Part shown: piece after piece, positions 60,833 through 62,204 of the stretch | Numbering within the stretch: the first letter of the stretch is position 1 | How the letters are laid out: the number at the start of each line of letters is the position of its first letter | From: Actinoallomurus sp. | GTDB lineage: Bacteria; Actinomycetota; Actinomycetes; Streptosporangiales; Streptosporangiaceae | Direction of reading: 5' to 3' | Length of the DNA: 62,204 nt | Assembly: GCA_025964625.1 (NCBI GenBank) | Contig: JAOPYL010000243.1 | Span: forward strand, 1-62,204 | The notes under the pieces: generated by a model | Database searches by the model: none | What the model was told of the DNA's origin: nothing | The model's input: only the letters and a program-made list of their open reading frames with translations | Translations under genes and position numbers: made by a program

Positions 60833-61378
60833 CTACTTCTTTTCGTCGGCCTCGACCTCGTCGGCCTGGGCTTCGTCGGCCTGGGCTTCGTCGGCCTGGG
60901 CTTCCTCGGCCGCCGGCTCCTCCGTCTTCGGCTCCTCGGCCTCCTCGGCCGTGGTCGCCTCGGACGTGGACTCCTCGGCCTTCTCGGCCGGCGCCGGGCG
61001 GGTGGTCGTCGCCACCGGGGCCGACTCCTCGACCAGCTCGATCAGCGCCATCGGAGCATTGTCGCCCTTACGCGGGCCGAGCTTGGTGATCCGGGTGTAG
61101 CCGCCGGGGCGGTTCTCGAACCGGGGGCCGATCTCGGTGAAGAGCGTGTGGAGGACGCCCTTGTCCTGCACGACGGTGAGGACCTGCCGCCGCGCGGCGA
61201 GGTCGCCGCGCTTGGCCTTGGTGATCAGCTTCTCCGCCAGCGGGCGCAGCCGCCGGGCCTTGGTCTCGGTCGTGGTGATGCGGCCGTGCTCGAACAGCGC
61301 CGTGGCCAGGTTCGCCAGGATCAGCCGCTGGTGTGAGGGGCTGCCGCCGAGGCGAGGGCCCTTGGTGGGCTTGGGCAT
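60833..61378 (-). CDS. rplQ: 50S ribosomal protein L17
   Basis: 181 residues. [47 protein letters not shown] and [14 protein letters not shown] are the L17 core (about 120 residues). The tail is acidic and Ala-rich, ending in AQADE repeats encoded by a 15-nt tandem repeat (about 60859-60908). Such tails are found in other actinobacteria. AAAAAGGAGAATG precedes the ATG. Confidence 0.97.
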
Positions 61379-61498
61379 GGGTCATTCTCCTTTTTCAACC
61401 CGCGCCGGCCGTGTGAGGTACCGGTGTCGGTCCGGCGGGCCGAAGCCCGCCGAGTGTCCATGACACGGGCGGCCCCGAAGGACCGCCCGCGCTCAGTC

Positions 61499-61561
61499 TT
61501 AGTACTGCTCGGTCTCGGCGTAGCTCTGGTCCTCGTCGCCGTAGTTGTCCGCCGCCGCGGT
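61499..61561 (-). pseudogene. rpoA: 3' end of rpoA (RNA polymerase alpha), truncated by the junction
   Basis: Twenty codons read TAAADNYGDEDQSYAETEQY then TAA. The YAETEQY ending is that of actinobacterial RpoA, and the location directly upstream of rplQ is where rpoA belongs. Further upstream the frame leaves the RpoA sequence within a few codons, and base composition changes to AT-rich. In this assembly the rest of the gene is absent from the window. Confidence 0.7.
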
Positions 61562-61572
61562 CTGGTGAAGTC
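61562..61572. other. composition and homology junction
   Basis: Left of here the sequence is GC-rich and encodes the RpoA tail on the minus strand. Right of here it is AT-rich and protein-like on the plus strand. No direct repeat, tRNA gene or integrase is visible that would mark a normal integration site. Confidence 0.6.
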
Positions 61573-62204
61573 GTATCCGACAGGCAAGCACGCTCATTAT
61601 CATGACTCAGATTTTCAATTGCTATCCAACGCGAAGGCACTCAATTCCATTCGGATGGCCTTCGCGAAAAGTCGATTTAAGTTTAACCTTTACGTATTCA
61701 CAGATGATGTTGCCATGGAATCGATAGATCTGGATAAAGCAGAAGAACTTCTTGGTCGGACGATTTCGACTGCGGGCCGAATCACTGTGATATATACGAA
61801 CAATTTGACAGTTGATTATATTCCAATGACTCCTTGGATTTTTGCGCATCGGCTGGCACATGGTTTTCAATTTTTCGACGAATTCGACAATGTCGCCCAG
61901 AAGGTTCTCTTCGAATCACTTTCTGACATATATAACGCGGTAAAACCTATTAGCGCAAAAAAGCCACAAATATTAACGGACTATCTGGAGTTTGACGGAG
62001 CCACGTCTGATAAAATGCGGCGTATGTCGAACATTCTCTTCACCATGAAGTCCGCGAGAACGGCACGTATCCACAGCAACATTGAGTCGTTACCAGAAAT
62101 ATTTGCTCAATTTCTTTTGACAGGGCGAGTGAGATTCAATCGCATGAAAGATTGGGATTTGTCACGTAATGTAGATTTGTTGCGATATGGCGGGAGGATA
62201 ACAT
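61565..62204 (+). CDS. AT-rich open frame of foreign character, partial
   Basis: Frame open from before the junction to the window end with no stop: about 213 codons from GTG 61565, 183 from ATG 61655. GC is visibly far lower than elsewhere and codons such as ATA, TTA and AAA are frequent. The product has charged and aromatic residues spread as in a real protein, with TPWIFAHRLAHGFQFFDEFD near the middle. Protein-like sequence begins right at the junction (HYHDSDFQLLSNAKALNSIR), so the true N-terminus may lie beyond it. I do not recognise the family; a viral or other mobile origin is possible. Confidence 0.55.
   Translation, partial: MKSYPTGKHAHYHDSDFQLLSNAKALNSIRMAFAKSRFKFNLYVFTDDVAMESIDLDKAEELLGRTISTAGRITVIYTNNLTVDYIPMTPWIFAHRLAHGFQFFDEFDNVAQKVLFESLSDIYNAVKPISAKKPQILTDYLEFDGATSDKMRRMSNILFTMKSARTARIHSNIESLPEIFAQFLLTGRVRFNRMKDWDLSRNVDLLRYGGRIT

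Follow-up and report, generated by a model that had tools for sequence, protein, structure and literature searches.

PMC8172020, on short-read metagenome assembly, reports a mock-community test in which chimeric sequences were always located at contig ends, and notes that read coherence is not guaranteed by k-mer assemblers such as SPAdes. We describe here the end of a contig in an Actinoallomurus draft genome that, judged from sequence comparisons, is very probably a chimera of this general kind, a piece of a tailed-phage gene misjoined to rpoA, and not a biological feature. On the phage side, the closest described counterpart is A0A6J5SZC5, an uncharacterised protein of an uncultured Caudovirales phage.

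The contig and its annotated features

The window, i.e., the whole stretch of DNA analysed (62,204 bases), is the entire contig C154 of the Actinoallomurus draft G000 (375 contigs; 5,837,371 bases; completeness, 95.47%; contamination, 1.13%). The shortest of the 138 contigs C1 to C138 of this draft has 2,571 bases, a minimum that suggests a metagenome bin to which a length cut was applied. For comparison we used seven other genomes of the genus, among whose names are Actinoallomurus soli, A. iriomotensis, A. purpureus, A. spadix, and Actinomadura sp. DC4 (as filed); six of the seven have the rpoA-rplQ region on a single contig, and the seventh is the metagenome-assembled genome (MAG) Actinoallomurus sp. 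RYN_221 (G005). The features of the right end of the window are as follows.

60833 to 61378, minus strand: rplQ (ribosomal protein L17), intact; open reading frame of 181 aa
61400 to 61453, minus strand: L17 ribosomal protein leader RNA, between rpoA and rplQ (Rfam RF03132; 57 bits, gathering score 34.9)
61499 to 61561, minus strand: last 20 codons of rpoA and its TAA stop, from alignment to contig C287 and to the genus
61562 to 61563, no strand: joint of host and foreign DNA, with the last match at 61562, the first mismatch at 61563, and a drop in G+C
61563 to 62204, plus strand: AT-rich, foreign tail, whose frame 61565 to 62203 is part of an uncharacterised tailed-phage gene with no stop, from tblastn matches to IMG/VR loci

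The host operon and its break

The host side of the joint is conventional. The rplQ region is 85 to 90% identical at the DNA level to that of all seven other genomes of the genus, and the name rplQ, given by recognition, is supported by the L17 leader upstream of the gene. The preliminary description had held that the tail of RpoA ends properly beside rplQ, that the gene is cut 20 codons before its end by AT-rich foreign DNA, and that an open frame runs on the opposite strand beyond the cut. The alignments bear out each of these points: 20 codons and the TAA occupy positions 61499 to 61561 of the minus strand, rpoA is readable in the window from this stop only as far as 61562 in the alignment to the rpoA of C287, the G+C content falls from 71% to 43% at that point, and the opposite strand is open from the joint to the end of the contig (213 codons, counted from a GTG at 61565). 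Beyond the mismatch at 61563, three further bases match the C287 rpoA, after which the sequences diverge.

In composition the tail stands apart from everything else on the contig, with 43.0% G+C in positions 61563 to 62204 versus 70.8% in the remainder and with a GC3 of 45.5% in its frame versus 95.1% in rplQ. No 600-base block of the window falls below 62% G+C except the two that hold the joint and the tail. Because the contig stops at 62204, only 642 bases of this DNA are visible.

The passage from rpoA to the rplQ leader is unbroken in all six relatives that have the region on one contig, and in RYN_221, where the region is split over two contigs, these are joined by an exact overlap of 121 bases. 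Therefore, C154 should naturally lead into the remainder of rpoA, and it is here that the assembly broke. A second contig end carrying that remainder, which the preliminary description had proposed to look for, does exist. The last 1,846 bases of C287 (C287:24926-26771) contain rpsD followed by rpoA up to and including the stop codon, oriented so as to lead into C154 and with a single TAG in frame. The true continuation of the interrupted gene thus lies on another contig of the same assembly, as expected of a chimera. The alpha C-terminal domain of RpoA occurs once in the draft, at C287:26426-26599, and the contig ends 172 bases later; likewise, there is one rplQ region, on C154. A DNA search with positions 61000 to 61566, which include the 5' part of rplQ, matched in the draft only C154 itself and the tail of C287.

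The two rpoA tails are 97% identical over 75 bases and differ at two, one in the stop codon (TAA in C154, TGA in C287) and the other at the joint. Past the stop, the sequences differ, C287 having a repeat-like element and C154 lacking it. The last 192 bases of C287, this element included, are identical to RYN_221, and the 1.6-kb region as a whole is 93.7% identical.

Some further peculiarities of this region were noted. The repeat-like element, which has a length of about 60 bases, follows the rpoA stop (L001:1783-1846, on C287); it is present also in RYN_221, in a copy identical to that of C287, and in the relative G003, and it is missing from the window and from five other relatives. No further full copy was found in the 1.1 Mb of the draft that was searched. 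The in-frame TAG is located in the alpha C-terminal domain (L001:1654-1656) and arises by a single base, the seven relatives having GAG; it is probably a sequence or assembly error, being 190 bases from the contig end. Finally, in this genome of about 70% G+C, the tract of rpoA codons at G000:C287:26546-26562 takes an AT-rich form, GATATAAGGAATTTCGG, that includes ATA and AGG. This form was found in six of eight genomes of the genus, in 1 of 17 others of the family (a match that may lie outside rpoA), and in none of 16 more distant ones; the tract could be an internal promoter or have been transferred.

The tail as part of a tailed-phage gene

Direct searches with the translated tail returned little. 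In Pfam, VWA_4 (E = 0.002) and MOV-10_N (E = 0.022) were the sole matches, and neither reached its cut-off; PHROGs, NCBIfam, GenBank phages, and plasmids gave no match; and the best of the PDB sequences reached only E = 1.8. Automatic 8-residue patterns derived from the fragment recovered nothing in IMG/VR, eight stretches in genome contigs fit a pattern with none encoding a relative, and none of 295 other genomes of the phylum contained one.

Relatives were recovered by scanning IMG/VR with a degenerate DNA pattern for TPWxxxHRxxH, which was based on the fragment and on its resemblance to phage proteins. At least 120 stretches were found, of which 80 were listed; 75 of these 80 match the fragment by tblastn at E <= 1e-4 and 51 at E <= 1e-8, the best at 1.6e-19, and 20 shuffled queries gave no match at 1e-3. 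The loci were selected by the motif, so likeness in those 11 residues is by construction, and most of the alignments cover 120 to 220 residues. Among the 80, L141, L142, and L144 were rejected as chance matches, with stops around the motif and scores that fail 1e-4; L136 and L187 likewise fall short of that threshold. A second scan of IMG/VR with an alignment yielded 82 relatives among 89 stretches; 80 were kept, and these viral loci range in G+C from 0.31 to 0.58 (median, 0.39).

The best relative, L182, is encoded on a viral contig of 378,912 bases, where 8 of the 10 neighbouring frames scanned match PHROG families, including a DprA-like protein, a DNA methyltransferase, and, as the second match of one frame, a tail protein family. 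A profile of the family, into which the window fragment was included, found no member in 395 other actinobacterial genomes and no other occurrence in the draft itself.

An alignment of the window fragment with 15 of the 75 relatives, picked among the best scoring, shows 14 invariant positions (fragment numbering, with the TPW motif being the search pattern): D16, N80, T89, P90, W91, A94, H95, R96, H99, R165, E174, E178, A181, and Q182. The fragment is 23 to 29% identical to these relatives, and it has the family's TPWxxAHRxxH and ExxAQ motifs with the conserved arginine in between. More generally, the family is widespread, and across 48 sequences a T, a P, a W, HRxxH, an R, two E residues, and a Q are invariant. 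Six members that were scanned gave no PHROG match and no Pfam match above the cut-off, one of the six having Reprolysin matches below the Pfam cut-offs; two members tried against GenBank phages gave no match.

Single-sequence structure prediction of the tail fragment gave a mean pLDDT of 31.8, too low to be of use. For L182 (L182:10829-11713), a fold was predicted at a pLDDT of 89.0 from 48 sequences, including the window's; the input consisted of 49 nonredundant relatives minus L162 and L177, with long N-terminal extensions trimmed. The best structural match of this predicted fold is A0A6J5SZC5 (E = 2.1e-21; TM, 0.80 to 0.82). Foldseek returned no PDB match at E <= 0.001, and a profile search of PDB sequences with the family returned nothing. 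VIA-align 2 gave weak rows, the best at Z 3.7 (an ion channel) and zinc peptidases of the PPEP/M34 type at about Z 2.6 to 3.6. No function was drawn from these rows or from the Reprolysin matches.

Probable truncation of the phage gene

In 61 of 63 complete relatives, drawn from among the 80 listed loci, at least 113 residues separate the first ATG from the TPW motif, compared with 88 codons in the window when counted from a GTG at 61565. Of the two exceptions, L161 has a frame that is long enough (146 codons) given another start, and in L166 the first ATG precedes the motif by 87 residues, close to the value for the window. The EAPxxDxxxxGD stretch of the family's N terminus is absent from the window. 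These comparisons strongly favour a phage gene truncated at the joint, yet a degree of uncertainty attaches to this because the GTG, two bases inside the foreign part, is a possible start codon and L166 is of similar length. Most likely, then, both genes are cut at one point. With these two caveats, the partners are each cut in mid-gene without element ends, as a chimera would have it.

Signature of the assembly

The right end of C154 has the lowest G+C content (0.425) of 223 contig ends from 130 of the 375 contigs, the next lowest being 0.543. The survey covered C1 to C138 apart from 10 masked contigs and the far ends of contigs of >20 kb, along with C154 and C287 out of C139 to C375; it relied on composition, by which a chimera with a high-G+C partner would be missed. 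The suggestion of similar tails at other contig ends found no support in G+C, no second AT-rich end of the C154 kind being present among the 223.

Two further stretches below 50% G+C were seen, one in the interior of C17 and the other at the start of C71. The former (L043, positions 501 to 1500) has about 46 to 55% G+C inside the contig. By eye, the C17 stretch looks like a mobile island and the C71 start like an rRNA leader.

In ten pairs, the contig ends have exactly 127 terminal bases in common, which we take to point to a k-mer assembler with k = 127. In all, 16 terminal overlaps were listed; the remaining six, one exact over 104 bases and five of 83 to 99% identity, may be repeats or reflect related strains.

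Origin of the joint

A chimeric contig was the reading preferred in the preliminary description, and it is supported by the following: the two halves of the operon lie at two contig ends in matching orientation, the tail is of phage identity and its gene apparently truncated, and the AT-rich end is singular in the part of the assembly that was read. C154 would be genuine Actinoallomurus DNA to about 61562, from where it should run on into the remainder of rpoA at the end of C287; instead, it would enter 642 bases that belong to an unrelated tailed phage, one presumably present in the same sample. Since a k-mer assembler joins only sequence that is supported by reads, the joint probably goes back to a chimeric read or library molecule, which would have been taken up by the k = 127 assembler where the true path was already broken.

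Three points sit less easily with a chimeric origin. No second end of this sort turned up in the part of the assembly that was read, the GTG and L166 leave the truncation less than certain, and C287 and C154 agree imperfectly, with two base differences and unlike sequence after the stop. A mixture of related populations would explain both these differences and the break of the assembly at this place: C154 and C287 would come from two co-occurring Actinoallomurus populations, and assembly would have failed in the rpoA stretch that they share. The end of C287 agrees with this in being identical to RYN_221 over its last 192 bases, repeat-like element included, despite 93.7% identity over 1.6 kb, as does C154 in having the other stop codon and no such element; however, the identical element could also be conserved within the genus. 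We entertain such a mixture tentatively. It is compatible with the chimera and adds to it, but it accounts for the position of the break and not for the phage DNA, and hence does not replace it.

An insertion into the chromosome would place phage DNA beside or inside rpoA, with a second intact rpoA-rplQ junction elsewhere. The joint contains no N, and an assembler with k = 127 would presumably need k-mers that span it; moreover, C287 carries rpoA through its stop codon, though interrupted by the one TAG. Nevertheless, the draft has a single RpoA C-terminal domain, on C287, and a single rplQ region, on C154, which makes one copy of the operon, and no second intact copy of the interrupted essential gene was found in the draft, which at 95.5% completeness could have missed one. 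The preliminary description had seen no att repeats, tRNA, or integrase at the joint, and searches for repeats, tRNAs, and protein families agree: no direct repeat in positions 61000 to 62204 spans the joint, there is no tRNA anywhere in the window, and the only long foreign frame in the 642 visible bases matches no integrase family. The attachment repeats, integrase, and tRNA target that would mark the boundary of a prophage or genomic island are thus absent from the visible part. The lack of the phage family in the other 395 actinobacterial genomes also speaks against an insertion, which we consider very improbable. It is similarly hard to credit that the joint is real in some cells, illegitimate recombination having linked the AT-rich phage DNA to the rpoA end in vivo; if true, it would mark an encounter of an Actinoallomurus host with this group of phages. 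That C154 is itself phage or transduced DNA carrying a host fragment has a negligible probability, for while phage DNA does lie at one end, the other 61.5 kb is of host composition throughout and, at its rplQ end, collinear with the genus.

A chimeric contig, as we favour, has practical consequences. If left in place, the tail would pass in annotation for a host gene or for a phage element next to an essential operon, and a false host link to Actinoallomurus could be assigned to the phage. Trimming of C154 at 61,562 is called for.

Comparison with described systems

The joins reported in PMC8172020 link genomes that resemble each other closely, those of Salmonella enterica and Escherichia coli, unlike the partners in C154, which share no sequence at the joint. 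The resemblance to the chimeric ends described there is in position: the foreign sequence of C154 occupies the extreme end of a contig that is coherent elsewhere, at a break in the true path. With regard to the family of A0A6J5SZC5, the window has only part of the protein, and the fold was modelled for L182 and not for the window piece. The likeness lies in the TPWxxAHRxxH and ExxAQ motifs, which the window shares with the IMG/VR relatives, and in the predicted fold of L182, which matches A0A6J5SZC5.
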